From IMG/VR virus record IMGVR_UViG_3300031951_000999, positions 1 through 27,410 of that record: 27,410 bases of DNA. One strand, written 5' to 3'. Of this stretch, positions 9,216-25,722 are shown one piece after another (position 1 is the stretch's first letter; each line of letters begins with the position of its first letter). This DNA comes from a virus. The notes below the pieces were generated by a model, which saw only the letters and a list, made by a program, of their open reading frames with translations, searched no databases and was not told the origin of the DNA. The translations under genes and the position numbers were made by a program.

Positions 9216-9504
9216 TTTTGTTTAATTTAGATCTGAATATTTTTTTATAAACATTTGGAGTAGAACCCAAGTAAGCTCTTATTATAACATGAAGATTTTC
9301 TTCTCCTAATATAGAACAATAAATTTTTTGTGTTTTTTTATCGTCTATTATTAGTTTTAATAAGTTTAAAAAGTTTAATTTTTTTCTTTTAGAGATACAA
9401 ATAAATGATCCTATTTTTAAAGTCAAACTTTCAAATTCTTCTATATTTAATGCTTCGGATGGATTATATAATTCCTCCAATTGTTGTGTTGATGTGATAA
9501 TCAT
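9178..9504 (-). CDS. Small hypothetical protein in the gp33 position
   Basis: The family is not recognised. The 108-residue protein has an acidic N-terminal third (about 8-28, EELYNPSEALNIEEFE). A hydrophobic-basic core follows (KIGSFICISKRKKLNFLNLLKLIIDD, about 30-55), then a helix (NLHVIIRAYLG, about 70-80) and a strongly basic tail. The basic tail could contact nucleic acid. It starts with an ATGA overlap against the DHH gene stop and runs 38 bases into the next gene. T4 has gene 33 beside 59, but this protein lacks the acidic, Leu-terminated C-terminus of gp33, so I do not assign it. Confidence 0.6.
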   Translation of the reverse strand: MIITSTQQLEELYNPSEALNIEEFESLTLKIGSFICISKRKKLNFLNLLKLIIDDKKTQKIYCSILGEENLHVIIRAYLGSTPNVYKKIFRSKLNKNGRNNRVEQKDI

Positions 9505-10424
9505 AGCTCCTCAAAATTTTTAGTCAATTCCAAAAAGAGTGGAGTTATTTTTCCAACTGCGGAAAATTTATTTCCAGACCCTTCGCAATATTTTTCGACA
9601 AATTCTTTTAAGTCAAAAGGTGAGTCTGACTTTTTTTGTCTAAATGTTATTTTTTCTGTTTTTGTATTTATGTACATAAATAAATCTGGTTTGTATTTAT
9701 CTATTAAATAGTCCATTGCAAGGATGTCTGTTTTATCAGACATTACCGCTACTATTTCTCTTGATTCCAAATTTATTTTAATTTTAGATTTAAATTTTTT
9801 TAAAGATTCTCCATAGTTTTTTGCTTTTATCTTAACTTCATTTATTTCTTTTTTTTCTTTATCTGAAAATGGTACAAATCCATTTTTATATTTTTTTATA
9901 AAACCTTGAAAATTATTTCTATATAAATTCCAAAATAATATATTTAAGTCATATGACTCTTTAAATTCTAATTTAAAACAATCATAATCGTCACCGTATA
10001 ATATTAATTTTTTTTGAGCATCAGTTAAATTTGGAAATTTTTCTTGAAATAATTTCCTAAGTAACAAACAATTAGAAGTGAATTCTTTATGTAAGATTTT
10101 TGAGTTTTTAAATTTATCAACTAAAGAAGTTGATCTTTCGTGGTGATCTATTATCGTTATAAACGATTGATCTAAATCGGGTAAAAACTCTTCTCTTAAT
10201 GGCAAATCCAATAATACAACGTTTGGTGGATTGATAGTTCTATTAACATAATTTTTAATTTTATCTATTTCCAAATTTGTTATTTCTTCATATGAAATAA
10301 CAGCATCTGGTCTAGACCATAAAAAAGTTAGTAGGCTTATTGCTCCATCTAAATCTTTGTGTGTAAAAATATGATACGCTTTGTCATGCATCAAATTATT
10401 TACATCTATATTATCAAAAGTCAT
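9501..10424 (-). CDS. DHH-family phosphoesterase
   Basis: This is a predicted manganese-dependent phosphoesterase of the DHH superfamily (RecJ, NrnA and exopolyphosphatase relatives), which cut phosphodiester bonds in short oligonucleotides, single-stranded DNA or cyclic dinucleotides. The family motifs appear in order: HKDLDG (H22, D24, D26), LLDLPL (D73), DHH at 93-95, and YGDDYD (143-148). A C-terminal GSGNKFSAVG (282-291) resembles the glycine-rich DHHA substrate loop, but Asn-Lys stands where the usual His lies. At 307 residues it has NrnA-like rather than RecJ-like size. It sits in the replisome operon, its start forming an ATGA overlap with the helicase stop. T4 carries RNase H elsewhere near 33/59, so this protein may process primers or degrade oligonucleotides instead. 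That substrate is inferred. Confidence 0.85.
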   Translation of the reverse strand: MTFDNIDVNNLMHDKAYHIFTHKDLDGAISLLTFLWSRPDAVISYEEITNLEIDKIKNYVNRTINPPNVVLLDLPLREEFLPDLDQSFITIIDHHERSTSLVDKFKNSKILHKEFTSNCLLLRKLFQEKFPNLTDAQKKLILYGDDYDCFKLEFKESYDLNILFWNLYRNNFQGFIKKYKNGFVPFSDKEKKEINEVKIKAKNYGESLKKFKSKIKINLESREIVAVMSDKTDILAMDYLIDKYKPDLFMYINTKTEKITFRQKKSDSPFDLKEFVEKYCEGSGNKFSAVGKITPLFLELTKNFEEL

Positions 10425-11847: not shown

Positions 11848-12954
11848 TTATTCCGATGCTTCACTTTTAAATGTAAGTTTTTCTTTTAATTTAATTTCTA
11901 ATTTAGGTAATATTTTACTCCACGCCGCATCATCGTCTCTCCACTCTTTATAAAAACCAAGTACTTCTCCTTCAATAGCATATCGATGCCCTTGCTTTTC
12001 GATAATACCATATCCTTCTGCCATTTCCAAAAGACCAGAATATTTTGAAAGACCATTTTTAAAATTTAAATACATTTCACATTCCAAGAACGGAGGAACG
12101 AATCTATTCTTTGTGGTCAATGCTCTCATTGTTAATCCGTTTACATCTTTTGAAATCGGAGTTGATTCGTCTGATGCGTTTTTGTTATCCGACTTTCCAA
12201 CTCTCTCTTGTTTAGTTGACATCTGAACTAATACAGATGACATATAAAGAGGACCAGAACCTCCAGATTGGTTTTTAACTAATGTTGGATACATCGCCCC
12301 CGGATTATCATAAATGTGATTTGTAAAGATAATAGGACAATTTGCTTTTGCCGATACGTGAGTGATAGCTCTTAACATACTTTTAAGTGATACTGCTCTA
12401 GCACCCATATCAGCTGAATCTTTTCCATCTTCAATAATTTTAGCTTCTCTAGCTGAGATTAAATTACCAAGAGAATCAATCGCAAGCATAACTTTTCCTT
12501 GCAAGCCCTTTTCAATTACTGTTTTTAAAAATTTTACAATTTGATTTCTGCAATCTTCTATAATTTCAGTTGGGCAATGTTTAATCTTTGATGGATCACA
12601 TCCTAAGTTTTTTGCTGTATCACGGTCTAGAGCGTTTTCAGTATCAAAGTAAACTACGTGCATACCTTTCCTTTGCGCGTTAGCCATAATCTTATTAACC
12701 ATTAAAGTTTTTCCGCAAGCTTGAGGGCCAGCAAACCCTGTTATTCTACCCATCGGTACACCACCATATAGTGATCCAGAAATAATAGCATTCAATGCCA
12801 TGCAACCTGTATCGATCCATTCGTTAACTGTAGATAGAGTATTTTCATCCAAGAACGCAGCATCTGGATTTAGATCATCTAATACTTTGAATGCATCATC
12901 AATTTGTCCAATATCAACTTGGTTGTTATCTGTTTCTTTTTTTGTTTTAGCCAT
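11848..12954 (-). CDS. uvsX: UvsX recombinase (phage RecA)
   Basis: This is the phage strand-exchange protein. It forms filaments on single-stranded DNA and starts recombination-dependent replication. It has 368 residues (T4 UvsX 391). The first 40 residues are charged and contain helices that probably mediate subunit contacts. ATP-binding motifs are GPQACGKT (76-83, Walker A), VYFDTENALD (101-110) with the catalytic-type Glu, and LAIDSLGNL (Walker B, about residue 158). TNHIYDNPGAM corresponds to the RecA L2 approach region, and SGGSGPLYMSS follows it. It is the first gene after a strong terminator, and the A/T-rich stretch TATTATACTAATAAG just upstream is a plausible promoter or leader. Codon use is somewhat richer in G and C than the gene average here, suggesting good expression. 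Confidence 0.93.
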   Translation of the reverse strand: MAKTKKETDNNQVDIGQIDDAFKVLDDLNPDAAFLDENTLSTVNEWIDTGCMALNAIISGSLYGGVPMGRITGFAGPQACGKTLMVNKIMANAQRKGMHVVYFDTENALDRDTAKNLGCDPSKIKHCPTEIIEDCRNQIVKFLKTVIEKGLQGKVMLAIDSLGNLISAREAKIIEDGKDSADMGARAVSLKSMLRAITHVSAKANCPIIFTNHIYDNPGAMYPTLVKNQSGGSGPLYMSSVLVQMSTKQERVGKSDNKNASDESTPISKDVNGLTMRALTTKNRFVPPFLECEMYLNFKNGLSKYSGLLEMAEGYGIIEKQGHRYAIEGEVLGFYKEWRDDDAAWSKILPKLEIKLKEKLTFKSEASE

Positions 12955-12971
12955 ACTCTTATTAGTATAAT
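12955..12971 (-). promoter_or_regulatory. Candidate uvsX promoter and leader
   Basis: On the coding strand the 17 bases ahead of the uvsX ATG read TATTATACTAATAAGAG followed by T-ATG spacing. Transcription from upstream should be stopped by the terminator directly before it, so uvsX needs its own start nearby. TATACT or TATTAT would serve as a -10-like hexamer. The leader would be very short, so the exact element is unproven. Confidence 0.3.
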
Positions 12972-13015
12972 AAAAAACCCCGAAAAGTCAAAAGCTTTTC
13001 GGGGTTTCTTTTTTT
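12972..13015 (-). terminator. Strong intrinsic terminator, possibly bidirectional
   Basis: A perfect 13-base-pair stem joins AAACCCCGAAAAG (12975-12987) and CTTTTCGGGGTTT (12995-13007) with a seven-base loop. Read on the minus strand it is followed by a T run, ending transcripts of the small gene at 13031-13420 before uvsX. On the plus strand it is also followed by a T-rich run (13005-13015), so it could work in both directions. Its GC content stands out sharply from the surrounding A/T-rich DNA. Confidence 0.92.
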
Positions 13016-13030
13016 CCTATGTTTCAACTC

Positions 13031-13420
13031 TTACTCATCAAACAACTTAATCACGTCATTGGATGATTGTTGTGGCGCTTGTTGGGGTTGTCCTCCAGCG
13101 ACAAATTCATTGTTCTTGTTGAACATTTGAGCGTACTGTGCTTGAAGTCTATAGTCGATAGCTTCGATTGAGGTTTCGACGACTTTATCTTTTAGAAAAG
13201 TAAAAACTACATCTTCAGTTTTATCAGCTAAAAATTCTCTAAAAAATAGAGGATAAAGCTGAACAGACATTCTACCAGAATTGTCTGGTGCTGGAGGTAC
13301 GTGAAGAATTACTGGATTCTTTACTTTAAGAGCGGAATCTGTGGATTCTGTTAGTTCACCGATAATGCTTCTTCCTAAATAATCAAGGAAGACCGTTAGT
13401 TTTGTGTTTGATGTATTCAT
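13031..13420 (-). CDS. Small Sm/LSm-like protein, separately transcribed
   Basis: I do not recognise the exact family, but the layout resembles an Sm/LSm-type beta-barrel: TKLTVFLDYLGRSIIGELTE (residues 7-26, a strand-Gly-strand unit), then ALKVKNPVILHVPP (30-43), an NSGRMSVQLYPLF segment, and a strand-forming TEDVVFTFLKDKVVE. After a helix (about 85-100) comes a Gly/Gln/Pro linker and an acidic tail (IKLFDE), similar in style to the tails of ssDNA-binding proteins. The frame is open to an earlier ATG at 13456, but the ATG at 13420 gives a natural N-terminus (MNTSNTKL) and a 129-residue product. It stands alone between a divergent promoter region and a strong terminator, and its codons are richer in G and C than average. 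Both features suggest an abundant protein. RNA or ssDNA binding is an inference. Confidence 0.7.
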   Translation of the reverse strand: MNTSNTKLTVFLDYLGRSIIGELTESTDSALKVKNPVILHVPPAPDNSGRMSVQLYPLFFREFLADKTEDVVFTFLKDKVVETSIEAIDYRLQAQYAQMFNKNNEFVAGGQPQQAPQQSSNDVIKLFDE

Positions 13421-13472
13421 CGTTAATATATTAATATTGTTTGAATAAAAAATCAATAGGATAAATATAAAA
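13421..13472. promoter_or_regulatory. Divergent promoter region
   Basis: These 52 bases separate two divergently transcribed genes and must contain both start regions. The minus side is TAATATATTAATATT-rich directly before the ATG at 13420. The plus side contains ATAAATATAAAA ending at the ATG at 13473. Neither has a Shine-Dalgarno sequence. Individual -10 and -35 boxes cannot be assigned with confidence in such A/T-rich DNA. Confidence 0.45.
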
Positions 13473-13766
13473 ATGAGTAAAAAAGAATTTATATATCATC
13501 CGTATACAAACGAATATAGACATAAAACATTTCCAATATCTATTGATTCTGAATTATTTAAAGATATGTCAGAAGAAGAATTGGAAAACTTTTTTAATTC
13601 AAAAATAAACGATATTAATAAAGAAATTTCTTCTATTAAAAAACCAGAACGAAAAGAAATTCCAGCTTCAGATGAAGATATTAAAACTATGTTTTCTAAT
13701 TTAAGAAAACAATTAGCAATGCAAGAAAGTTTTAAAGATTATTTTTGTCGCCAGAAAACAAACTAA
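13473..13766 (+). CDS. Small charged hypothetical protein, lone plus-strand gene
   Basis: The family is not recognised. The 97-residue product starts with a Tyr-rich segment (FIYHPYTNEYRHK, residues 6-18), then a helix rich in Glu and Lys (about 31-55, EEELENFF onwards), a Pro-containing turn, and a second helix (about 68-92). No membrane segment is present. It is the only plus-strand gene between 4611 and the right end. It fills the space between the Sm-like gene and the polymerase, with which it overlaps tail to tail by 35 bases. Its reading frame has coding-like Lys/Glu/Ser composition and no competing frame over most of its length, so I think it is real, but it lacks any homology cue. Confidence 0.55.
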   Translation: MSKKEFIYHPYTNEYRHKTFPISIDSELFKDMSEEELENFFNSKINDINKEISSIKKPERKEIPASDEDIKTMFSNLRKQLAMQESFKDYFCRQKTN

Positions 13767-16326
13767 TTATATCTGTTACTTGTTCACAACCAATTGCTGG
13801 TAATGGCCATCCGATAATATAAAAAATTCTGCTTATTACTGGTAATACGTTTTTCTCAAACATTAACTTATAATCTATTTTCAGAGAATTTTCAAATTCT
13901 TTTGGATATTCATCTATAAACGCCATAGTTTTAATATTGAATTTATTTTTTTGAGCGTAAAAATATTTTATCTTTGTTCCATTTCCTATCTCTGGATATA
14001 GATGTTTTAGTTGATAGTCTTCAAGTAATTTATTATAGAATAAAGCTCCTTGATAATGGTTTGGTGTTCCTTTACCAAATTTATTATCATTAAATAAATC
14101 ATACCATTTAGAGTAACTTTTAGCATTTTTTCTAACTGATATTGCTTCTATAGGAAGTTTACAAAAATTTTCATATCCTTTATGGAAAAGATCAGATGCT
14201 TTTTTTCTATCTTTAGCAAGTATAGCCGATTCTATAACGTTTTTAGTTAATTCTTTAACTTCTTTAGATAACGCGGCTTTAACTATTTCTATTCCTTTAT
14301 ATAAGAATTTATCAGTTTTAACTCCTTCGTTATCTAAAACGTGTAATATGTAAAACTTTTTGGCTTGTAGTAATGCAACATCGCATATCTTTTCTCTCTT
14401 GAAATGATATCTAGGATCTAAAGAATTTAAATCTTTTTTAGCCCACTCGTTTATTTCTTCATTTACATATTTTCCAAGATCTGAAATAAACGTATTAGCA
14501 TCTTCTGTTAATCCGTTTTCATCTTTTAGTTTAATGCCTTTGAAATTAAAAAAATCTTTAAACGAAAGAAACGCACTGTCCGTATCAATGTATTTAACTA
14601 CATCTTCATAAGATCCTTTATAATCACATTTATTAACTAGATATTGATGAAATAATTGCGATCCCTTTTTAACTACAGATTGTCCAGTTAGTGTTACGCT
14701 TTTAGCATGGTCGATATCAAAAAACGGAGAATATTGTTGTGAAAAAACTCCATAGATAGAATTAATCAAAGTTTTATATACATTAGATAATGAGTCATTA
14801 TCATTTGCAATAGTAAGTAATCTCCTTTTTTCGTCTTCGTTTTTACACTTTGCCGCTTTTTTCTTAGCATCAAGCATTTTATTTTTAGCTTCTACTCTTT
14901 GCGTATAAATTTTATCAATTAAATTTGGAACGACGCCTTTAAATTTTTGAGTATATAAAACATTAGCTTTTGTTATTGATAATTTTTCTTCTCTTATAAG
15001 ATTTAAAAACTGTTCTTTAGTTAAAGAAATTTCTTTGTTTTGGATAGTTTTTATGATGAACTTACCGTCTTTTACATCCAATAACTTTCCAACTTTTGTT
15101 TCCGGAGAAATGTTTAATGTTATGATAGTATTTGGATAAAGACTATTAGCGTCATACGTAACAACATCTTCATATAGGTTAGGTTTTGGTTGTAAAACAT
15201 ATCCACCCTCAAATTTTTGTTTTATATTCTCGTATGTAAATGTCGGAATTATTAAATTTTGCAGTAATGCTTGGTGAGCTACTGCGCCAGTAATCATAGA
15301 AACTTTACCTAAAGATTTTTCAAACGGAATAAATCCTTTATAAGACAAGTTTCTTATTAAATCCATGTATTTTAATTTATCATCTAATTTAACTAAAAGT
15401 CTAACGTCTTGAATGTTATAATCAACAAACGTAGTCCAATCTGTATCAGCTAATTTTGTTAGTGATGATGCATTATAATTTAATTTGGATTCTTCAAGTT
15501 CATATTCGCCGATATACCCTAAACTATAAGATTCTCTTTCTCCCATAGAAAAAGTCTTGTATATATCCATATAATCTAAACAGCTAACACCATGTAAAAA
15601 CCATTGGTTTTTCTTTTGACCTAATTTATTTACGGATACCCCTTCTCTATATTCCACTCTTTCGATTGGAGACATTTTTTTGTTTTTATCTTCATCAAAT
15701 AAAATAGTAAGACGATTCATGATATATGGTAAATCGTAACCATGAAAGTTCCACCCCGATACGATATCAGGTGTATTCTTTTTCCAAAATTTTAAGAATA
15801 AAGATAATAATTCTTTTTCAGAAGCGCACTTTACATAAGTAACATCTTCTTGAAGTGTTGAGTATGGTTTAAGACCCCATACATAATATTTTTTAAATAA
15901 AGAATCATAAACGGTTATTACGTTTATCATGTCTTTTGCTTCTTCTGCCGTACTAAAAGCATCTAATTCATTTTGTTTATAAGTTTCTATATCCAGAAAG
16001 TAAATTCTTAATGGATTTTTAGAAAAATTTTCTAATAATGAAGCATCTTTGAAAGTAGTTAATAAAAATTGTTGATCTGGATTTAGATTAAAAAATATTC
16101 TTTTGTTTTGAGTATTTTTAACAAAATCTCGTCTTCTAAAATTATTAATAAAAGACATCTTCTTAAGATTTGTACCAAAAATAGAAGTAGCATCTTGTAT
16201 ATTCTTATCTTCTACATATAGGAACGGTTCGAAATCGACTTCGATTTTTACTCTTTCGCCGTCCTCACTCCAAGTCCAAAGATGAATTATACTCTTCTTG
16301 TAATCGTAATAGATATTCCTATACAT
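13732..16326 (-). CDS. 43: gp43-type family B DNA polymerase
   Basis: This is the phage replicative polymerase with 3'-5' proofreading exonuclease. Its 864 residues are close to T4 gp43 (898). The exonuclease motifs are YFLDIET (109-115, D112 and E114), GWNFHGYD (191-198) and YNIQD (303-307). The polymerase motifs are DANSLYP (392-398, motif A), KTLINSIYG (518-526, motif B) and YIDTDS (579-584, motif C with D581 and D583). The sequence ends in IISLFSGDKNNL, which could serve as a clamp-binding peptide. It begins 33 bases after the glycosyltransferase stop, behind an A/T-rich leader. Its 3' end overlaps the small convergent plus-strand gene by 35 bases. No intein or split is seen; all motifs are in one frame. 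Confidence 0.96.
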   Translation of the reverse strand: MYRNIYYDYKKSIIHLWTWSEDGERVKIEVDFEPFLYVEDKNIQDATSIFGTNLKKMSFINNFRRRDFVKNTQNKRIFFNLNPDQQFLLTTFKDASLLENFSKNPLRIYFLDIETYKQNELDAFSTAEEAKDMINVITVYDSLFKKYYVWGLKPYSTLQEDVTYVKCASEKELLSLFLKFWKKNTPDIVSGWNFHGYDLPYIMNRLTILFDEDKNKKMSPIERVEYREGVSVNKLGQKKNQWFLHGVSCLDYMDIYKTFSMGERESYSLGYIGEYELEESKLNYNASSLTKLADTDWTTFVDYNIQDVRLLVKLDDKLKYMDLIRNLSYKGFIPFEKSLGKVSMITGAVAHQALLQNLIIPTFTYENIKQKFEGGYVLQPKPNLYEDVVTYDANSLYPNTIITLNISPETKVGKLLDVKDGKFIIKTIQNKEISLTKEQFLNLIREEKLSITKANVLYTQKFKGVVPNLIDKIYTQRVEAKNKMLDAKKKAAKCKNEDEKRRLLTIANDNDSLSNVYKTLINSIYGVFSQQYSPFFDIDHAKSVTLTGQSVVKKGSQLFHQYLVNKCDYKGSYEDVVKYIDTDSAFLSFKDFFNFKGIKLKDENGLTEDANTFISDLGKYVNEEINEWAKKDLNSLDPRYHFKREKICDVALLQAKKFYILHVLDNEGVKTDKFLYKGIEIVKAALSKEVKELTKNVIESAILAKDRKKASDLFHKGYENFCKLPIEAISVRKNAKSYSKWYDLFNDNKFGKGTPNHYQGALFYNKLLEDYQLKHLYPEIGNGTKIKYFYAQKNKFNIKTMAFIDEYPKEFENSLKIDYKLMFEKNVLPVISRIFYIIGWPLPAIGCEQVTDIISLFSGDKNNL

Positions 16327-16359: not shown

Positions 16360-17658
16360 TCAAGAAATATCTTGTTCTGGATTGTTCTTTACTAGATTTG
16401 GTGCTTTTTCTTTTCTTTCTTTGGAACCCCATTCTGTAAAGTATACAGCTTCATATTCATTAATATGATCCTCTAACCAAAGACCTTCTACAAAGGTTCT
16501 AGATTTTTTGGATAGTTTCATGTAACGATCAAAATCTGAAGTTATGTATTCCAACTTTTGAATTAAATCGTCTCCAGACGTGAATTTAACATCTGCGTCC
16601 TCGTAAGTACACATATCTTGGAATGCTCCGGGCATACCTAACGCACCTGATTCAACCATTTTAATATTACTCTTGGATCTATTAAATACATTGTCTTGCA
16701 GCGAAGCAAAAACAGCATTGCAATTAGTATCTACTAATCCTTGTGGATAATCTATAAGAGATGACCATTCTACATATTCCATGTCTCCGTTATCAATATA
16801 TGGTTTGAGAACTAATGGATAGCATCCCTTCCATACAAAGTGGAACTTTTTACGGGCTTTAATTATCCAATCTGTAACATGTTTAAAGTCATCATTTAGA
16901 CCTGTTTTATTTAAAACGTCAATATGAGTTCCAGATCCAGAATATAAAATTCTAGGACGCTTTTTGTGTTTTTGATACAGTTTCTCAATCCGGTCTGGAT
17001 CATAAAATCTGTCTAACCAGAACTTAGGAGCATAGTTTGGAATAACTGTTACTCTATCAGTTCCAATTTTTTGTTTATAATATTCTTTCATGTAATTACA
17101 TGTTACTGTAATTTCATCTACAGATTGCATTATTTCTACTATACTTTCGGTAATAGCTTTGTCGCAGAACGGATCTTTGCATCTATTATAGTCTGGAATA
17201 TCATCTTTAAATACGATATCATCAACTTCATATATAAGTCTAAATCCTAATTCTTTTCCTAGCTGTTTAAGTTGTAAAACAAAATCTTTTTGTGCTGGTG
17301 TAGCTTGTCTTTGAAGTCTTATAGCTTTTATTCCTTGATAAAATCTAGGATCTAATACCATGCAAGTTAATCCCGATATACAAGCTTTTTGATAACTGTT
17401 CAAAAGATATTCAGGCCAAATCATTCTCCAGAATCCACAACCACCATAATCTGCATAATAATTTAATGCTCTTGGAAGTTTTGATTCCGGCATTTCTACT
17501 GGAGGAGCATCCGGTATGCTAATAGGTATTAGAGATACCAAGGTATAAACCGGAAGACCAAGAGGTGCGCCTTGTGGGAGCATTGGGATTCCCATGTATA
17601 TTGGATTATACTTATAGATAATCTTACTTTTATTTTCTTCTTTGATTTTTAAAGCCAT
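16360..17658 (-). CDS. GT-B fold glycosyltransferase (GT4-like)
   Basis: This is a predicted nucleotide-sugar-dependent glycosyltransferase of the GT-B type. The acceptor-side half contains GFRLIYEVDD (138-147), a motif frequent in GT4-like enzymes, followed by CNYMKEYY and VIPNY (205-209). The donor-side half opens with RPRILYSGSGTH (234-245) and contains NIKMVESGALGMPG (331-344), where E336 corresponds to the conserved Glu contacting the donor. The N-terminal 60 residues are unusual, being Pro-rich with several hydrophobic short segments (about 20-58). It sits between gp46 and the polymerase rather than inside the glycan cassette, with small A/T-only gaps on both sides. The acceptor is unknown. 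DNA, virion protein or host surface sugars are all possible. The motif evidence for a glycosyltransferase is good. Confidence 0.8.
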   Translation of the reverse strand: MALKIKEENKSKIIYKYNPIYMGIPMLPQGAPLGLPVYTLVSLIPISIPDAPPVEMPESKLPRALNYYADYGGCGFWRMIWPEYLLNSYQKACISGLTCMVLDPRFYQGIKAIRLQRQATPAQKDFVLQLKQLGKELGFRLIYEVDDIVFKDDIPDYNRCKDPFCDKAITESIVEIMQSVDEITVTCNYMKEYYKQKIGTDRVTVIPNYAPKFWLDRFYDPDRIEKLYQKHKKRPRILYSGSGTHIDVLNKTGLNDDFKHVTDWIIKARKKFHFVWKGCYPLVLKPYIDNGDMEYVEWSSLIDYPQGLVDTNCNAVFASLQDNVFNRSKSNIKMVESGALGMPGAFQDMCTYEDADVKFTSGDDLIQKLEYITSDFDRYMKLSKKSRTFVEGLWLEDHINEYEAVYFTEWGSKERKEKAPNLVKNNPEQDIS

Positions 17659-17681: not shown

Positions 17682-19481
17682 TTACGAATTAACAAGTTTA
17701 GTTTCTCCGTTTTCTTTTTCTAAGAGAATAACATTATCAATATTTGATTTTGTACTAGTCTTATGAGATATAATATACACTGATTCTTGATACTTTTCCA
17801 CTTTTAATTTTAAAATATTCAATATTTTATCAACTCCCAAGTCATCCAAAGCGGAATCGAATAATTCATCATATATATTCAAAGAATATGATATTCCAGA
17901 ATGCAATCTTAAAACATCTTGGAAAGTGAATAGTATAGCAACATCTATTCTTTTTCTTTCACCCCCGCTGAAATTAAAATATGAACATTCTTTTCCTTGA
18001 TCGTTGTAAATTATTTCTTCAAAAACATCATTGAATTCACACTTACATGGAGCATCAAAAGTTTTTAAATAAAAATTTAATCTTTCATTCAAGATTTTCA
18101 GTATTTTATTAATAATAAATGTTTTTACTCCATCTTCTGATACTATAAATTTACAAGAATCAAGAACTTGTAAATGTTTTTTAGTTCCTAAAAGTTTTTC
18201 GTTCAGATTTTCAATTTTTTTATTACACTCTACTATGTTTTTATCATAATCATATTTTTCATTTTTAATTTTTAATACGTCATCATTATATTCTTTATTC
18301 TTTTCTATTAAGTTTTCTATTTTTTGTTCGGTTAAAATATTTTTTTGTATTTGATTTGTATATAATAAATTTTTATTTTTTATTTTTTCTAATCCAGTTT
18401 CGATTCCAGATGCTTTTTCTTTTAATTGTTTTTCCTTATCTAGAAGTATATTAAATTGTTTTGTTTTTTCTTCTATTAAAACGTCTAACTCGTTTATTTT
18501 TGTCTGTATAGTGTCTATATCATCTTTGCAGTATTCTCTATTACAAACAGGACATGAATTACCTTTTTCTATAAATTTTTGTTTTTCCTTTTTTGATTGG
18601 TTTATTTCAGATGAAATTTCTGCTTTGTTTGAAATGATTTGATTTGATTCGATTTGAATCTTTTTAAACGCGTCAGATATAATTTTATTCTTTTCGTTTA
18701 AATCTTTAATTTTTTGTTTTAATTCATCTGTACTTTCAGATATAGAAAGTTTATTTTTTTCTATTTCATTTTTATTAATTTCTATTTTATCGTTTATAGA
18801 TTTTATTTTATTATTTTTTATTTCTTCAAAATTAACTTTTTGTTGTTCAAAAAGTTCTAAGTTTTTTTGTTGGTTTACGAAGTCATTACTTAATAAATCA
18901 TTTTCTTTTTTATAATCATTATATTCCGAACGTATTTTTAATAACATTTCGCTGAATATATTAAGTTGTAAAATACCTTCTATGAATTTTCTTTTATCCA
19001 CTTTTTTCTGAGCCATAAACGGAAGCGTATTATTAGCTGACATTATGACTGAGTTTTGAAAAACTTCTTCGTTTCCTCCTATTAAAGTTTTTATCAATTC
19101 ATCTGTTAAAGGTATTGTAGATGGGGTTATATCTTCTTCATCACAAACCAAAGATACTTTAGATGGTTCTAAAGTTCTTTTAAGAACATAATTTTTGGTT
19201 TCATTTTTATGCTCTATTTTGAATGTCAGAACAACTTCACAATCATTTTTACTTTTATTGTGTATTATTTTATCTTTTTTTAACTCTCTTATGGTATTAC
19301 CAAATAAACACCAATATATAGCATCGGTTATTGTGCTTTTACCGACTCCATTTTTTCCATTGTTATCTTTATTTTCTCCTGTTATCAAAGATATACCAGA
19401 GTTAAAATTTAATTTTAACTTGTTTTTACCTACCGATAAAAAGTTTTTAATTTCTACCGAATCAAAAAATATTTTTTTCAT
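17682..19481 (-). CDS. 46: gp46 recombination nuclease subunit (SbcC/Rad50-like)
   Basis: This is the ATPase subunit of the T4-type gp46/gp47 complex, which resects DNA ends for recombination-dependent replication. Its 599 residues compare with 560 in T4 gp46. The Walker A motif is KNGVGKST at 43-50. A long Lys/Glu/Asn-rich coiled coil (about 190-440) is broken by a zinc hook with C310 and C313 (CPVC). The ABC signature is FSGGERKR at 504-511, and Walker B is SLNIYDEL at 533-540 with the catalytic Glu E539. The ATG overlaps the stop of the upstream methyltransferase gene as TAATG, so it is coupled to the glycan cassette. The partner nuclease gp47, next to 46 in T4, is not adjacent here: a glycosyltransferase follows instead. 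Confidence 0.93.
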   Translation of the reverse strand: MKKIFFDSVEIKNFLSVGKNKLKLNFNSGISLITGENKDNNGKNGVGKSTITDAIYWCLFGNTIRELKKDKIIHNKSKNDCEVVLTFKIEHKNETKNYVLKRTLEPSKVSLVCDEEDITPSTIPLTDELIKTLIGGNEEVFQNSVIMSANNTLPFMAQKKVDKRKFIEGILQLNIFSEMLLKIRSEYNDYKKENDLLSNDFVNQQKNLELFEQQKVNFEEIKNNKIKSINDKIEINKNEIEKNKLSISESTDELKQKIKDLNEKNKIISDAFKKIQIESNQIISNKAEISSEINQSKKEKQKFIEKGNSCPVCNREYCKDDIDTIQTKINELDVLIEEKTKQFNILLDKEKQLKEKASGIETGLEKIKNKNLLYTNQIQKNILTEQKIENLIEKNKEYNDDVLKIKNEKYDYDKNIVECNKKIENLNEKLLGTKKHLQVLDSCKFIVSEDGVKTFIINKILKILNERLNFYLKTFDAPCKCEFNDVFEEIIYNDQGKECSYFNFSGGERKRIDVAILFTFQDVLRLHSGISYSLNIYDELFDSALDDLGVDKILNILKLKVEKYQESVYIISHKTSTKSNIDNVILLEKENGETKLVNS

Positions 19482-20011
19482 TAAATAAAAGCAACTAAAA
19501 TATCATTTTGAACATAACCATCTTCAAATTTAAATTTATAGTTTGGATTTATTTCTTGTAATTTTGTTTTTAAAGTTTCTAATTCTATACCTTCACCCCA
19601 ATGTGATCCAAAAACTCTAACATCATCAATTAAGATTGTATGATTTTTTATTGGGTTTGTTTTAATAGCGTCTAATTCTTCATACAGAGGACACTTTTTA
19701 ATTCCATTAGGTCCAAAATCAACATGAGCATCTAACCAAAAGGTAGTTGGTTTATCTAAATCGGGAACTAAAGAATTCATAACTAGAAGAGAATCTCCCA
19801 ATATCAATGAAACTTTACCTAAATCTATCAGCGGTTGATAGTTTTTAACATTTTCGTTTTGTAGAGTTTCGTCTATTTCTATACTATAAACTTTTTCAAA
19901 TCCAACCTCTAAGGCTAATCTAACGCAGTCTGCATTAGCAGTTCCCGTTTCTAAAAAATATGGATTTTTGTACTTCTGTAAGACTTCTTTTTTTAATGTT
20001 GTATATATCAT
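19481..20011 (-). CDS. Class I SAM-dependent methyltransferase-like protein
   Basis: This is a predicted methyltransferase of Rossmann fold, 176 residues. Motif I is FLETGTANADC (19-29). The acidic end of the second strand is SIEID (43-47), a GDS turn follows at 72-74, and WLDAH (92-96) marks the fourth strand. HTILIDDVR (124-132) provides a likely metal- or substrate-binding acidic pair, as in macrocin- or glycan-type O-methyltransferases. The size is compact, essentially one domain. It has an ATGA overlap with the fucosyltransferase-like gene upstream and a TAATG overlap with gp46 downstream. Its place at the end of a glycan gene series suggests a sugar or glycan as acceptor. This is inferred from context. 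Confidence 0.75.
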   Translation of the reverse strand: MIYTTLKKEVLQKYKNPYFLETGTANADCVRLALEVGFEKVYSIEIDETLQNENVKNYQPLIDLGKVSLILGDSLLVMNSLVPDLDKPTTFWLDAHVDFGPNGIKKCPLYEELDAIKTNPIKNHTILIDDVRVFGSHWGEGIELETLKTKLQEINPNYKFKFEDGYVQNDILVAFI

Positions 20012-20841
20012 ATAATAATCTTTCCGAATAATTTAGAAAAATTTAAAAAGGTACTTATAGACTCTATAATGATAGAGGTTTTAGATAAAACTAACATATC
20101 TAAAAACGCTTCTATTACAGATTCCTTAGATCTTTTTATATTAAAATCAAATATTCTTCCTTCGTTATCAATTATATTATCATTCCATCCAATATCAACA
20201 TTTAATTTTTCAGCGTAACTATTTTTTTTGATTGTTATGACATTTTTATAATTTGAAAATTTTATTTCTGTGTTTTTATCATCCGAACATACAAAAAACT
20301 TTTTATTTTCATTTGATTTTATTAAATCTTCTATTTTATTTTCATTTAAAAACAATTTAAAATCTGTTTTTCTTATATGTATTCCTAATGTATTTTTATC
20401 GATATTATTAACATCACATATTTGATTTACTTTTATTAAAATGTCTTGTTTTATATTTAAAGTTTTAATTTTATTTAAAATTAAATCCTCACTATAAAAA
20501 TTTGGTATTAAACTATTATAGTAAACTATATCACCATCTGTAAGAGTTTTAAAAAAGTTAATATTTTCAACGGTTGGGTAATAATGCTTTATATTTATTT
20601 TAGATTGATTTTCATGAATTAAAAAATTATTTAATTTATATTTTTCAAATAATTCATTTATATTATATTTTATAAGAGGTGTATTAGTTTCAAATAAATC
20701 GCTAAATGATGCTCCACACCAAGTATTTTCTGGCCAGCAGATTATTGGGGTTCTATTTAGTTCATCTGCTATTAATAACCCACCTATTAAAGCCCCTAAT
20801 CTATTTCCTAAGCCGCCATCGCAAAATATGATTAAATTCAT
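20008..20841 (-). CDS. Fucosyltransferase-like glycosyltransferase (GT11/NodZ-like)
   Basis: The product resembles the GDP-fucose-dependent transferase group (GT11, GT23/NodZ and protein O-fucosyltransferases). It has an N-terminal GGLGNRL motif (9-15), a central GIHIRKTDF (153-161) matching the H-x-R-R-x-D nucleotide-binding signature, and FVCSDD shortly after. The C-terminal part contains LVLSKTSIIIES, similar to the conserved Ser-rich donor motif of these families. Using the ATG at 20841 gives 277 residues and a four-base ATGA overlap with the upstream FkbM gene. An earlier in-frame ATG at 20856 is less natural. Donor identity is inferred from family resemblance. A different deoxy-sugar is possible. 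Confidence 0.75.
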   Translation of the reverse strand: MNLIIFCDGGLGNRLGALIGGLLIADELNRTPIICWPENTWCGASFSDLFETNTPLIKYNINELFEKYKLNNFLIHENQSKINIKHYYPTVENINFFKTLTDGDIVYYNSLIPNFYSEDLILNKIKTLNIKQDILIKVNQICDVNNIDKNTLGIHIRKTDFKLFLNENKIEDLIKSNENKKFFVCSDDKNTEIKFSNYKNVITIKKNSYAEKLNVDIGWNDNIIDNEGRIFDFNIKRSKESVIEAFLDMLVLSKTSIIIESISTFLNFSKLFGKIII

Positions 20842-21398
20842 GATAAAGCGTCCCAATATGACAGGTTTAAATTTATTTTATTTAAATCATTTTTTATTTG
20901 TTGTTCTTTTTCAAGAAACTCACTAGACATCCAACACGAATGAAATTCACAAAATAATTCATTAACATAATGAATAACTTCTGTATCTATCAAATCTCTT
21001 AAAACATCATATTCAGAACCTTCAATATCTAATTTTAAAATTATGTAATCTTCTTTATTAAAATTATTTTTTATATATTCTGATAAGTTTATACTTTTAA
21101 CTTCTATATAATCGGTTTCTTCTATACTATCCCAATTTGCTTTACTTTTTTGTGTTGTGGACCCAACACTGTTTTTATTTTTTACGCACCCCCATAACTT
21201 TATTACATCATTTTTGTTTGAAATTGCGAAATTAAATTTTTTACAGTCATCAAATTCGGGATTTAACTCTATTTGATTATACAAATAAGTGTTAGCTTCA
21301 AACATATGATATTCATATGTTATATCATTTAATATATTTCTAAATTTTTTAACAGATTCGCCTAAATGAGAACCACAATCTAATACAACTTTTTTCAT
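20838..21398 (-). CDS. FkbM-family methyltransferase
   Basis: This is a predicted SAM-dependent O-methyltransferase of the FkbM family, often found with glycan and polyketide clusters. The cofactor motif is LDCGSHLGES (6-15), the second-strand acidic motif is MFEAN (32-36), and the family hallmark LKLDIEGSEYDVL is at 121-133. The C-terminal part contains a strand-helix with CEFHSCW (150-156), matching the usual terminal His segment. Its 186 residues are short for the family but complete. It has a TAATG overlap with the AsnB-like gene upstream and an ATGA overlap with the fucosyltransferase-like gene downstream, so it is translated as part of the cassette. The likely substrate is a sugar hydroxyl. 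Confidence 0.85.
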   Translation of the reverse strand: MKKVVLDCGSHLGESVKKFRNILNDITYEYHMFEANTYLYNQIELNPEFDDCKKFNFAISNKNDVIKLWGCVKNKNSVGSTTQKSKANWDSIEETDYIEVKSINLSEYIKNNFNKEDYIILKLDIEGSEYDVLRDLIDTEVIHYVNELFCEFHSCWMSSEFLEKEQQIKNDLNKINLNLSYWDALS

Positions 21399-22729
21399 TA
21401 AAATCCTCTCTTTTCTAGTTTTGCATACGGAAAATTATTTTTATTAAAATAATAATCTATAGGTGCTTTATATTCTTTATTTTTTAAATCTTGATGCAAC
21501 CATAAAAACTCTTGAACCACATTTTTATCTAAAAAAGGATATCTCATTTCTATACCAAAAGCTCCTCCAACATATTCTTCTTTTGCTAAATATGACTCTA
21601 AAGTAGAACCATAAAAACTCGCCCATGGGAATATTGAACTTAAATCTTCTGGAAATTTTCCACCGAAATTACTATGTTGGTATAATTTTTTACCATTAAA
21701 TCCATAATCAGAAATTATTTCATCTGCTCCGGAACCAGATAGACATATTTTACATTCATATTTTTTTGCTGCTCTACATATAGAGGCGAAGTTATTAGAC
21801 CCTCCATCATCTATAAGCAAAGTATTGTATTCATTATAATCACTAGAAGAAGAATGAATGGTATAATAAAAAGGTTCAGTCCTATTTTTTATAGTCATAT
21901 GCGAAAAATTATACATCGAATCTTCTTTATATAATTTATAACACGTAGAGTTTTCATTTTTAAGTTCCAATCTTCGCAACACAATATCTTCATTTTCAGA
22001 CCCTAATAAACTAAAAGAATAAAATGTATTATTATTTTTTAATAATTCTGAAAATATTAAACCACTATCATAACCACTACTAAGACCTATAAAAATTTTT
22101 TTATCTGTATTTTTAGTTCTTTTTATAATAGAGTTTGAAAAAGCAAGACACCAATCATCATATGATTGTTTATGTTGTTTTAAATCAAAATTATATATAC
22201 TTTGTTCTTTTAAAATTTTAAACGTTTTTAAACATATAGTATATGTAGTATTTGGTTTTGCTTTTTTAATATTTTTATAATTTAATTTTTCTAACGGTGT
22301 TTTATATGAAGAACAACCAAAACCATCATCATCTAAAGAATAAAATAATGGTTTTGTTTTAAAAATGTCTGAACTCAAAACCACCAAATTCTTTTTATAA
22401 TCAACTAAGCATATTGCAAACTCCCCGTCTAATTTTTTAATAAAATTATCACCATACTCTTTATATAAAGGAATTAAACATTCGCCATCAGAAGAATAGT
22501 TTCCAAATTCATCATAATTGTATATCTCTCCGTTATAAATCAAATGAATATCATCATCTTGATATGGTTGTGATTTAAATTCTCCAGTGATAGAAAGTAA
22601 ATTATGTATAAAAATATTATTATTAATAGTTTTAACATTAGTAAAATCCGGACCTCTAAATTTTAAATAATAATTTAAATCGTCTAAATCTTCATTGTTA
22701 TGTTTGGTTGAAAATAAAATACTACACAT
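21398..22729 (-). CDS. AsnB-like glutamine-dependent amidotransferase
   Basis: This resembles asparagine synthase B. The N-terminal class II glutaminase has Cys2 exposed after Met removal, FRGPD (24-28) and IYNGEIYN (64-71). The C-terminal ATP-pyrophosphatase domain has LSSGYDSG (216-223) in place of the usual SGGxDS loop, and LSGSGADEI (330-338). A short 443 residues compares with over 550 in E. coli AsnB. The Arg normally preceding the Asp of the KPL segment is Ser here (SSDIFKTKPL, 119-128). It has a single-base gap to the DUF616 gene and a TAATG overlap with FkbM. It may make asparagine, but AsnB relatives in O-antigen clusters (WbpS type) amidate sugar uronic acids, and the glycan neighbourhood makes that equally likely. 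Confidence 0.85.
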   Translation of the reverse strand: MCSILFSTKHNNEDLDDLNYYLKFRGPDFTNVKTINNNIFIHNLLSITGEFKSQPYQDDDIHLIYNGEIYNYDEFGNYSSDGECLIPLYKEYGDNFIKKLDGEFAICLVDYKKNLVVLSSDIFKTKPLFYSLDDDGFGCSSYKTPLEKLNYKNIKKAKPNTTYTICLKTFKILKEQSIYNFDLKQHKQSYDDWCLAFSNSIIKRTKNTDKKIFIGLSSGYDSGLIFSELLKNNNTFYSFSLLGSENEDIVLRRLELKNENSTCYKLYKEDSMYNFSHMTIKNRTEPFYYTIHSSSSDYNEYNTLLIDDGGSNNFASICRAAKKYECKICLSGSGADEIISDYGFNGKKLYQHSNFGGKFPEDLSSIFPWASFYGSTLESYLAKEEYVGGAFGIEMRYPFLDKNVVQEFLWLHQDLKNKEYKAPIDYYFNKNNFPYAKLEKRGF

Positions 22730-22730
22730 A

Positions 22731-23417
22731 TTATTTTAAATGAGGAATTTCTTTTGAATATAAATTACCTCCTCCGTGATTATTTGCAAACCCTTTCAAT
22801 CTTTTAAAAGAGTATATTACATTTTTATTTCTTAATTTCCAAATACAATACATAAAGCTACATTGATCTCTTGAACTAAATTTGCAAATTTGTTCCCACC
22901 AACAAAATTCTAAATGTTTTATTTTATCTGTATTTTTTCTAATAAAAAAAGACATTTCTAATAATCCTATATTATTTGGAAAATTATCTTGAATGTAAAA
23001 TTGTTTTTGGTTATTAATCAGTTGATTATCATCTAAATTTAGAAGTTTAACTATTTCCATTTCTTGATAAATGCAATTTCTCTCTGGATGGAAGAAACCT
23101 AATATATCCGCATCTCCGTATTCATCAATTATTAATTTTGGATTTACTATTAATTCTTTGTTAGCATCCATCCAAACAATGTATTTATAATTTGGGAAAA
23201 AGGTAGTACTTAATATCTTGTAGATTTTAGCATCTCTTCGATCTGAATAATTATCTATATTGGAAAAGTGAAACCCTTGTTGTTGTTTCCATACTTTTAA
23301 ATCGGTTTGGTTGTCTGTAAAAGCTATATAATCGCAATTATCATATACTTCGGAAGGATCTTTTAATAAATCTTTTTGACCAAAGTTAGAGGTTAAAATT
23401 AAAAAATCTTTGTTCAT
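22731..23417 (-). CDS. DUF616-type glycosyltransferase-like protein
   Basis: The product matches the DUF616 (TOD1/MUCI70-like) glycosyltransferase pattern. YIVWMDANKEL (79-89) provides the strand with the acidic donor-binding motif. HPERNCIYQE (110-119) is the characteristic His-Pro-Arg-x-Cys-x-Tyr-x-Glu segment. RDQCSF (183-188) supplies a second conserved Arg-Asp-Gln, and the C-terminus carries a Gly-rich NNHGGG. It has 228 residues and no signal peptide or membrane segment. It begins 2 bases after the preceding gene ends and leads into the AsnB-like gene. The sugar and acceptor are unknown. The family is best known from plants and some bacteria, so a phage copy is notable. Confidence 0.8.
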   Translation of the reverse strand: MNKDFLILTSNFGQKDLLKDPSEVYDNCDYIAFTDNQTDLKVWKQQQGFHFSNIDNYSDRRDAKIYKILSTTFFPNYKYIVWMDANKELIVNPKLIIDEYGDADILGFFHPERNCIYQEMEIVKLLNLDDNQLINNQKQFYIQDNFPNNIGLLEMSFFIRKNTDKIKHLEFCWWEQICKFSSRDQCSFMYCIWKLRNKNVIYSFKRLKGFANNHGGGNLYSKEIPHLK

Positions 23418-23419
23418 TT

Positions 23420-24160
23420 TTAAGATAAAAGTTTAAATTTTTTTAAATTATTAATAAATTCAATATCATCATCGTAATTATCTAATAAATCCAAAAGTGG
23501 TTTTTTAAATTCCTCTCTTCCGTGAAATCCAAAATATGAACATAAATTTATAACTTTTTCGTCGTGATGTGGTGGAAGCTCAATACCGAATCTATTTGCT
23601 ATTTTCATGGGTGCGAATTTAATACCTTTATCTACTAATTGTCTTCTAGATACTCCACATAAAAACATATCTTCATTAAGAGGATAATCGTAATTAAGAT
23701 TTGAAGATTCTTGTAAAAACTTTTTACTTCTAAGAGAAAAACCCCCATTTCCTACAATATTTGGTATAGATTTTAAAGAATTAATATCAACTCTAGTGAA
23801 ATGTAATACTAATTGAGATACTCTTTTATCCCAAGGAGATCCGACATAATCATATTTTAAAAACTCATCAGTCCACATGAAAGGATTAGTGACATAACCA
23901 TCGGTTTGAACGACTAGACAATAATCTGTTTCTATGTAATCAACTAATTTTTTGATGCAAAAAAAACTATATTCATTTACATCATTAAATGTTTTTATAA
24001 TTTTTGTTTCTATAAAAGGATGTTCAATTTTTCTATCAGATAAAAGAATATATTTTCCAAAATTTATATATTTTGAACTTCTTTCTATTGCTTTTATACT
24101 GTTTTCCGGATCTCTAGTGTTTAAAGATACTATCGTAGTGTGCTTTAAATCAATTTTCAT
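23420..24160 (-). CDS. DUF5672-type glycosyltransferase-like protein
   Basis: This resembles the DUF5672 family of GT-A-like proteins. An acidic strand QTDGYV (85-90) is followed by YDYVGSPW (103-110), the family hallmark VGNGGFSLRS (136-145), and NEDMFLC (162-168), which supplies the catalytic-type acidic pair. A late GFHG segment (about 214-217) is also typical. The product has 246 residues and is cytoplasmic by appearance. The start overlaps the upstream gene by 11 bases. Close to the start the coding sequence holds a stem of TTTAAAG and CTTTAAA (24120-24126 and 24143-24149). Donor and acceptor are unknown. Confidence 0.8.
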   Translation of the reverse strand: MKIDLKHTTIVSLNTRDPENSIKAIERSSKYINFGKYILLSDRKIEHPFIETKIIKTFNDVNEYSFFCIKKLVDYIETDYCLVVQTDGYVTNPFMWTDEFLKYDYVGSPWDKRVSQLVLHFTRVDINSLKSIPNIVGNGGFSLRSKKFLQESSNLNYDYPLNEDMFLCGVSRRQLVDKGIKFAPMKIANRFGIELPPHHDEKVINLCSYFGFHGREEFKKPLLDLLDNYDDDIEFINNLKKFKLLS

Positions 24161-24935
24161 TTGAAATTTTTAAAAATTTATTTTGTAACTCATTTTCATT
24201 TTCCAATGGAGTCAAAAACTGACCATATGGTTTTCTATGTATTAAATTTGAATATATAAATTCATGCCACTTTTCGTGGTATGGTGTTTTTTCCCACAAT
24301 AAAGAATTATATTTGGCTTCTAAAGAATTTTCATTCCAATTTAAATCATGTTTTTCATGAGCTATAAAGAATTCTTTATTTTGTAATATACAATCACTAT
24401 AATTAAACATTTTTAAAGAAAAATCAACATCCCAAAGTGGTTCTGCGTATATAAAATCTTCAAAAATATTATTATTTTTAACCCACCATTCTTTTTTTAC
24501 ACACCAACAATCAAATCCAGCAATTTCTATCCGAAAAGGAATGATTTTATCTGTTAAACTTGTTAGTGGGTATATATCATGTCGAGAAAATACCATAGTT
24601 TCAAATTTTTTTGATAAAATTTCTTTTAAAAGTTTTTCGGAAATTAAAATATCACTATTTAAAAATAAAAAATAATCACATTCTTGATTAGATAGCACAT
24701 CAAAAAACTCTTTTGCTATTGGTTTTTCAGATATTGATCCGTTGATTATATCTTTTGCTCTTTTTTTTAATAAAGGAAGATGAATAAAATCACTATCTAA
24801 ATTCTTTTCAGTGTCAAAAGATATATTATACAATTCTATATTTGAATATAGACGTTTTAATTTTTTTAAAACGTCTATACATCTTGTTTGTCGATCATAA
24901 GATTTAAAAATATTAATCCCTATTGCTATTTTCAT
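24150..24935 (-). CDS. GT-A-like glycosyltransferase
   Basis: This is a predicted GT-A fold transferase. It starts with a beta strand (IAIGINIF, 3-10), then a run of basic residues and helices, and has YFLFLNSDILI at 88-98, with Asn-Ser-Asp in the place of a DxD metal motif. A later W-D-V-D-F segment (about 168-172) and the EKHDLNW stretch (about 194-200) would supply acceptor-side residues. It has 261 residues and no membrane segment. It overlaps its upstream neighbour by 23 bases and the downstream DUF5672 gene by 11. The beginning of the gene contains a long perfect inverted repeat. The family is less clear than for the other transferases, so the call rests on fold-level motifs and context. 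Confidence 0.65.
   Translation of the reverse strand: MKIAIGINIFKSYDRQTRCIDVLKKLKRLYSNIELYNISFDTEKNLDSDFIHLPLLKKRAKDIINGSISEKPIAKEFFDVLSNQECDYFLFLNSDILISEKLLKEILSKKFETMVFSRHDIYPLTSLTDKIIPFRIEIAGFDCWCVKKEWWVKNNNIFEDFIYAEPLWDVDFSLKMFNYSDCILQNKEFFIAHEKHDLNWNENSLEAKYNSLLWEKTPYHEKWHEFIYSNLIHRKPYGQFLTPLENENELQNKFLKISNEN
24847..24879. repeat. Perfect 14-base inverted repeat inside a coding region
   Basis: The arms TATAGACGTTTTAA (24847-24860) and TTAAAACGTCTATA (24866-24879) pair perfectly around a five-T loop. It lies 57-89 bases into the transferase gene on the minus strand. In RNA it would form a stable hairpin for such A/T-rich DNA. No T run follows on either strand, so it does not look like a terminator. 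Confidence 0.75.
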
Positions 24936-25722
24936 TTTTTATTCTTCTTAACTTATCAATAACTTCATTTTTATCTGCTGTTGGTATATTTTGTATTTCT
25001 ATGTTATGTTTTTTTCTAAAAAATTCAAATGTTTTATACAATAATTGTTGTCTAGATCCATCCGGTCTATCAGATTGTAACCTACTTTGTGCGTTTGGAT
25101 TATTTTCTATATAATCATCTGAATTGGATATGTCTGGAAACCACCAAAATGGAGTTGTCCATTTTCCTATTTTAGCTTCTCTATAAGCCATATCAATATC
25201 AAAGGCGTTTCTAAGCTCTGGAGATGGATCATAAAGACCAAGTTCATTAAAAACTGTACAATGATGATATGTAAATTCATTGCACATATTTTGATAAAGA
25301 GATAAATTTATATTATTATTATATTCAACAACAGTTTTTGGTGTTCTATTATAAGCTGAACCTGAACCTTGACCTGTACTAACAAAAGAAAAATATTTTA
25401 ATCCGGATATAGTTGATGCTTCAATATATTTTTTAAAAATATCTGAATTTTTAATAATCATATCATCTTCAATTAAGAAAATGTGTTCGCAATCTCTATT
25501 TAATAGATATGTTATGCAATCATTTCTAGATTGTGCTGGATAAAAATTTTTATTATGTTGAATCCAATCACAATCATAATTATTATTGTATTTTTCTCCC
25601 CCATTTACAACAACTAATTCGTTTACTTTGGTATTGTCGATACTTTTATATAAAGTTTTGAAATATTCTTCAGAATTATATGTTGTTATTCCAACTCCAA
25701 TTTTATTTTTAATGTATTTCAT
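24913..25722 (-). CDS. GT2-like glycosyltransferase (tandem paralogue A)
   Basis: This is a predicted inverting GT-A transferase of family 2 type. GVGITTYN (9-16) begins the nucleotide-binding domain, QSRNDC (64-69) is the conserved Arg-Asn-Asp region, IFLIEDDMIIK (81-91) carries the EDD metal motif (85-87), and TTPFWWFPDI (189-198) lies near the acceptor site. It is 269 residues long without a membrane anchor. It is clearly paralogous to the gene directly upstream: the ITYN start, EDD motif, TTPFWWF segment and the C-terminal EVIDKLRRIKN tail correspond. It starts within a 14-base overlap of that gene. The pair probably adds related sugars in sequence. Specificity cannot be read from the sequence. 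Confidence 0.8.
   Translation of the reverse strand: MKYIKNKIGVGITTYNSEEYFKTLYKSIDNTKVNELVVVNGGEKYNNNYDCDWIQHNKNFYPAQSRNDCITYLLNRDCEHIFLIEDDMIIKNSDIFKKYIEASTISGLKYFSFVSTGQGSGSAYNRTPKTVVEYNNNINLSLYQNMCNEFTYHHCTVFNELGLYDPSPELRNAFDIDMAYREAKIGKWTTPFWWFPDISNSDDYIENNPNAQSRLQSDRPDGSRQQLLYKTFEFFRKKHNIEIQNIPTADKNEVIDKLRRIKNENSNRD

Follow-up and report, generated by a model that had tools for sequence, protein, structure and literature searches.

An Sm-like protein gene beside uvsX in a T4-superfamily phage lineage, and a hairpin that appears to carry the uvsX promoter

A small gene stands between gp43 and uvsX in the replication region of an uncultured T4-superfamily phage. What kind of protein does it encode, what might that protein do, and how are the gene and its neighbour expressed? 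The window analysed here is the whole of a 27,410-base virus record, a stretch of replication and baseplate genes. The minus-strand order in the window is gp46, a glycosyltransferase-looking gene, gp43, the Sm-like gene, uvsX, gp41 and a DHH protein, followed by a small unnamed gene, a gp59-like gene, gp32, a second unnamed gene and gp45. UvsX, gp43 and gp32 were named from PHROG/Pfam matches, and the identities of gp41, gp45, gp46 and gp59 are our reading of the sequences. The features are collected in Table 1. A longer alternative reading of the Sm-like ORF, with a TTG start, would begin within the promoter-like site of the gene.

Table 1. Features at the Sm-like gene and its neighbours (window positions)
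Feature	Position	Strand	Remarks
Sm-like protein gene	13031..13420	-	129 aa; ATG at 13420, stop 13031-13033; conserved family proteins
Sm-like core, residues 6-106	13103..13405	-	AlphaFold2 models, 3BY7 match
Invariant C-terminal peptide, VIKLFDE in the window	13034..13054	-	56/56 complete members listed
Sm -35 box TTGATT	13451..13456	-	conserved promoter-like site
Sm -10 box TAATAT	13428..13433	-	ends 7 nt upstream of the ATG; predicted leaderless transcript
Putative Sm terminator hairpin with T-tract	12972..13010	-	hairpin scan, folding, relatives
uvsX -35 box TTGACT, in hairpin loop/3' arm	12986..12991	-	conserved in relatives
uvsX -10 box TATACT	12964..12969	-	ends 9 nt before uvsX ATG
uvsX recombinase	11848..12954	-	phrog_97, 2.3e-65; next gene in 56/56 loci listed
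gp43 DNA polymerase, upstream of Sm-like gene	13732..16326	-	phrog_262, 3.9e-187
Divergent 97-aa ORF	13473..13766	+	antisense overlap with gp43 3' end; 16/57 families

Viral contigs were scanned twice for relatives, the second scan covering the best 80 of 119 matches. At least 107 loci were obtained, including the window's own, with at least 57 distinct family proteins, and one of the 57 ends at a contig edge. Identity of the listed relatives to the window protein ranged from 80% to 38%. Searching 50,697 phage records by tblastn with the window protein and with L018 gave no relative. Bacterial and archaeal genome contigs gave 159 pattern matches with no relative among them, and therefore no host clue. 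Three near-complete phages of the group (G001-G003) had one Sm-like gene each.

The next gene on the same strand was uvsX in every one of the 56 distinct loci listed. The two genes were at most 10 nt apart in 26/56 of these loci, often joined as TAA-T-ATG, and so the Sm-like gene is not generally monocistronic. The original prediction of a monocistronic gene fits the window and 30/56 listed loci in all. Spacers of 50-200 nt were found in 29 listed loci. In L077 the spacer was 765 nt owing to an inserted stretch, and the terminator/promoter element described below was intact. The insert, between the Sm-like gene and the element (L077:3980-4745), looks by eye as if it may hold a reverse-strand homing-endonuclease-like gene. 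On the upstream side of the Sm-like gene, the divergent arrangement that had been predicted was real, with the 97-aa ORF reading away across a common 52-nt intergenic region. This ORF had no family match. Two other genes kept their places in most relatives: the DHH-phosphoesterase-like gene 3' of gp41 (9501-10424, minus strand) and the glycosyltransferase-looking gene between gp46 and gp43 (16360-17658, minus strand).

The structure of the window protein was modeled with AlphaFold2 twice, with 16 and with 56 sequences. Both models contained the same five strands (residues 8-12, 18-26, 30-40, 54-57, and 72-76) and a helix at 90-99, with pLDDT of 78 and 80 and pTM of 0.67 and 0.68, respectively. 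PDB entry 3BY7 was the top PDB match of both (Foldseek E 3.3e-4 and 3.4e-4), and VIA-align gave Z of 10.6 over 86 residues at 2.8 A and 10.3 over 81 residues at 2.5 A. The title of that entry notes structural similarity to Sm/LSm-like RNA-binding proteins, and its source is uncultured and marine; the protein is reported to be cyanophage-derived. Canonical Sm/LSm chains ranked behind it, with Z of 5.3-6.8, a range flagged by the tool as doubtful.

Sequence comparison led to the same entry by way of cyanophage proteins. In a single hhalign comparison, the 56-member profile matched seven cyanophage proteins with a probability of 90.8 and E of 1.2e-6, and the cyanophage profile matched 3BY7 with E of 3e-14. 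PHROG 527 matched 11/56 members at E ≤ 0.01, the window protein not being one of them. With a limit of E 0.01 the window protein itself matched no PHROG, nor did it reach the cut-off of any Pfam family, and direct sequence searches of the PDB gave weak unrelated matches or none, 3BY7 not being found. The Hfq and LSM family models gave no match at E up to 1. The predicted Sm/LSm-like beta-barrel is supported by the structural match and the profile chain. The N-terminal helix before strand 1, a feature of Hfq, is absent; the models begin with a strand, and their only long helix is 90-99. Because of the structure match, the profile chain and the PHROG 527 matches, the evidence supports the phage Sm-like kind (3BY7/PHROG 527), and not Hfq or canonical LSm by sequence. 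The core probably self-assembles, perhaps as a pentamer. The 3BY7 entry holds five chains of one sequence, presumably a pentamer, which leaves the predicted hexa- or heptameric ring unsupported.

The window protein shares its core fold with 3BY7, which is joined to it through the cyanophage profile but has no detectable direct sequence match to it and, with a sequence of 100 residues, is too short for the core plus a long linker and an LFDE tail. The PHROG 527, 431 and 471 paralogues of the cyanophages Syn1, S-SM1 and ACG-2014f have a related profile and likewise lie in replication, recombination and late-sigma clusters. They differ from the window family in their neighbour genes and in number of places (three in S-SM1, three in ACG-2014f and one in Syn1, against one in this phage group), and the LFDE ending is absent from the seven cyanophage proteins compared. 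In the cyanophage loci (L108-L118, L155), PHROG 527, 431 and 471 genes were seen next to gp43, near gp55/uvsW and within the clamp-loader operon. The label 'methylamine utilization' carried by PHROG 471 members is probably a misnomer. With Hfq and Sm/LSm proteins, the window protein has in common a predicted beta-barrel topology, a possible ring and a disordered tail; it differs in lacking a family-model match, in having a helix on the C-terminal side, and in its fixed tail peptide. The family forms a new branch among the known phage Sm-like proteins, and its expression element is conserved and unusual.

All 56 complete members listed end in the pattern [VIT][VI][NK]LF[DE][DEQ], which is kept even across family pairs that are only ~40% identical. 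Between the helix and this motif lie 10-28 variable, low-confidence, Q/P/S-rich residues across the family, and in the window protein pLDDT fell below 50 at residues 107-123. The acidic disordered tail of the original prediction is thus half right: the tail is low-confidence or disordered, but it is Q/P/S-rich with an acidic-hydrophobic tip and not acidic throughout. A variable linker with an invariant tip suggests a docking peptide. An ending similar to the gp43 and Sm tails, DVVELFV, was seen in a 113-aa protein of G002 (175744-176085, minus strand), possibly a further binder of the same partner.

The Sm-like gene has a promoter-like site very close to its start codon. A site ending 4-11 nt before the Sm ATG was found in 55/57 listed genes, compared with 0.785 of 57 in shuffles; L007 and L046 were the two without one under the rule used. 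The site in the window matches only 8/12 bases. Since promoter-like sites of a generic kind are as frequent in the window as chance predicts, the case for a promoter rests on conservation. For uvsX, the -10 box is followed 6-10 nt later by the ATG, in L035 and L037 by way of a second ATG that aligns with the others. No SD-like sequence was found upstream of the Sm-like gene in the 57 listed. Since the promoters are so near the ATGs, both transcripts are predicted to be leaderless, with putative start sites close to the start codons. A TANNNT about 12 nt before the start is a sign of a leaderless gene in the available parts of two reports (PMC3160421; PMC12340547), and the genes here have a -10 box ~10-12 nt before the start and no SD.

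G001, G002 and G003 (L121-L153) have a genome-wide excess of such near-ATG sigma70-like promoters and a scarcity of SD sequences. With genes called from the first ATG of each ORF, 39 strong promoter-like sites ended 5-10 nt before a called ATG, compared with 31 spread over the other 55 distances (binomial P 2e-21), whereas the split at non-start ATGs was 42 to 283. These sites correspond to 39/814 genes with a leaderless-type promoter, and most genes of the three phages are without one. The same calling gave 0/779 such genes in OspM_OC, Syn1 and 122 kb of T4. None of the 39 genes had an SD-like sequence. SD-like sequences preceded 80/814 genes in the group and 343/779 in the comparison phages; because these phages are SD-poor in general, the absence of an SD at Sm and uvsX is not specific. 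Leaderless, SD-free mRNAs for early and replication genes, made from host sigma70 promoters, are probable in this lineage, though well short of certain.

The spacer between Sm and uvsX in the window folds into a hairpin after the Sm stop codon. With 6 GC pairs it has the most among hairpins in the window scan, and its 14 pairs tie for the most with 24847-24879, which has 3 GC pairs. The fold z was -5.3 (79 nt) and -7.3 (51 nt), and 0/200 shuffles were as stable. Terminator-like sites in the window numbered 5, against 5.5 expected by chance, and the hairpin was judged real because of its fold energy and conservation, not the number of such sites. A stable GC-containing hairpin followed by a U-tract is the form of an intrinsic terminator, and the Sm message would end here. 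A strong terminator had been predicted, and the hairpin and T-tract agree with that; the prediction saw the terminator only, although the hairpin also contains the uvsX -35 box. The hairpin of the Sm message thus appears to hold the start signal of the next gene. Rfam matches near the hairpin were all sub-threshold, for example His_leader with 34.3 bits (49 needed), and were taken as chance.

This layout is conserved. A sigma70-like uvsX promoter was present in 30/30 listed loci with a Sm-uvsX spacer, with its -35 box in the hairpin loop/3' arm in 29/30. TTGAC(A/T) occurred in 29/29 spacers of 50-200 nt, which represent 25 distinct elements, and all 25 had TTGAC, a gap of 16-17 nt and TANNNT. 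In 24/25 the stem was uninterrupted over 10 bp or more, with TTGAC in the loop and 3' arm. The stem cores vary (CCCCG, CCCTG, CCTC, CCCAC, TCCCG, CCTAG, GGCCG, and others). The elements' own arms paired at a mean of 14.8 bp, whereas arms swapped between different cores reached 10 bp or more in 11% of 554 swaps, with a mean of 6.4 bp, in a test that relies on the same hairpin search that defined the elements. The hairpin arms co-vary: the sequence differs and the predicted pairing is kept. Within-column shuffling of single 5' bases kept 83% of pairing; it was too weak a control, because the columns are conserved, and was replaced by the whole-arm swaps. In L055 the hairpin stands side by side with the promoter, just upstream of it, and its T-tract leads into the -35 box, an arrangement that speaks for the retention of both termination and initiation. 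A single interleaved element with a proper -10 box was present in each of the window, G001 and G003, always at Sm-uvsX, and no further one (stem of at least 11 bp plus -10 box) was found elsewhere in the window, G001, G002 or G003. An ordinary terminator stood upstream of two more of the 39 leaderless-type genes in G001-G003, making 4/39 in all compared with 6/230 sampled others.

We propose, with a probability of about 0.6, that the gene encodes an Sm-like ring subunit of a T4-superfamily phage lineage, of the 3BY7/cyanophage PHROG 527 kind, with tails that dock it, a leaderless promoter of its own and a terminal hairpin holding a second leaderless promoter. Sequence analysis shows the gene, its fold match and tail, the synteny, the promoter-like sites and the co-varying hairpin, whereas the ring, nucleic-acid binding, docking, true start sites and termination are inferred. 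The folded core would carry flexible tails that end in one invariant hydrophobic-acidic peptide. The ring may bind single-stranded RNA or DNA, and several tails would dock it onto one fixed partner in replication or recombination, most likely UvsX or another protein of that module; UvsX is favoured because it is the constant neighbour. A host-type sigma70 promoter of its own would drive the Sm gene, giving a leaderless mRNA that ends at the hairpin. The loop and 3' arm of the hairpin contain the -35 box for a further leaderless promoter, which would serve uvsX-gp41. In a sister clade, the hairpin is missing and Sm and uvsX are a tightly joined pair.

Several other explanations were weighed. 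An Hfq-like phage RNA chaperone that regulates phage or host transcripts, as originally suggested, would agree with the Sm-like fold, with the disordered tail and its acidic tip, a layout known from Hfq, and with a transcript ending in a hairpin and U-tract. We regard it as unlikely, though it is the strongest of the alternatives: the Hfq and LSM models did not match, the structural models are without the N-terminal helix, the tail closes with a hydrophobic peptide that is strictly conserved, not with a merely acidic tip, and the linkage to uvsX is fixed. As a constant partner gene, uvsX speaks for recombination/replication no less than for RNA chaperoning. For the palindrome upstream of uvsX, the other reading is a protein operator or general cis element and not a terminator. 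A near-perfect inverted repeat overlapping a promoter-like site would suit an operator, but the arms differ between relatives while pairing is kept, a T-tract follows the palindrome, the two parts stand side by side in L055, and the window, G001 and G003 contain it once each; we therefore consider this reading improbable.

The tail also invites comparison with sliding-clamp clients. The C-terminal peptide could bind gp45 in the manner of the motifs in gp43, gp33 and gp55, with the ring riding the clamp. The available part of one report describes for gp55 a variable linker and a conserved hydrophobic-acidic C-terminus (PMC2988020), the same layout as that of the Sm tail. The gp43 of these phages has the C-terminal pattern TDL-x-(D/E)-LF, the corresponding Sm pattern is V(V/I)(N/K)LF(D/E), and endings of a loose pattern occurred in 6/292, 3/273 and 3/249 genes, Sm included each time. 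This clamp-binding reading of the tail looked good by eye, but independent T4 clamp-peptide motif scores, from gp43, gp33, gp55 and ligase, did not single the tail out, ranking it 143/292, 20/273 and 126/249, and the gp55 of these phages is without a clamp-like tail. A motif built from the group's own gp43 tails ranked it 17/292, 12/273 and 14/249 (top 4-6%). We judge a clamp client doubtful, slightly more so than the chaperone. A more far-reaching idea, taken as a whole, is a long shot: early/replication genes would be expressed from leaderless, SD-free, host-sigma70 mRNAs, and the single Sm-like ring would be a dedicated partner of that mode, handling 5'-AUG or U-tailed transcripts. Its invariant tails would anchor it to the machinery of recombination and replication, and one complex would then both handle RNA and recombine DNA.

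Returning to the proposed Sm-like ring with its two leaderless promoters, the expression signals can be compared with leaderless genes of Deinococcus-Thermus and Actinobacteria, as described in the accessible portions of PMC12340547 and PMC3160421. Both have TANNNT about 12 nt before the ATG and no SD. The present group differs in having a TTGAC-type -35 box, in being T4-superfamily phages, and in the integration of one promoter into a terminator. According to a passing remark in the part of PMC5312081 that was available, leaderless transcripts are frequent in phages. The open-access literature on phage Sm-like proteins, leaderless phage genes and terminator/promoter overlaps, so far as its text was accessible, described neither this terminator/promoter element nor leaderless genes across whole genomes of T4-like phages. 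If confirmed, the terminator/promoter chimera and the leaderless starts would mean a T4-like lineage that starts translation quite unlike T4, and the leaderless mode would have consequences for gene calling and for host guessing. Sm-like proteins recur in T4-superfamily phages, and those compared are without useful annotation (PHROG 'unknown function' or 'methylamine utilization'); the fixed uvsX linkage and the fixed tail peptide are two direct handles on function.

Elsewhere in the window, a run of minus-strand genes at 19481-27242 looked by eye like glycosyltransferase, methyltransferase and glutamine-dependent asparagine synthase genes.
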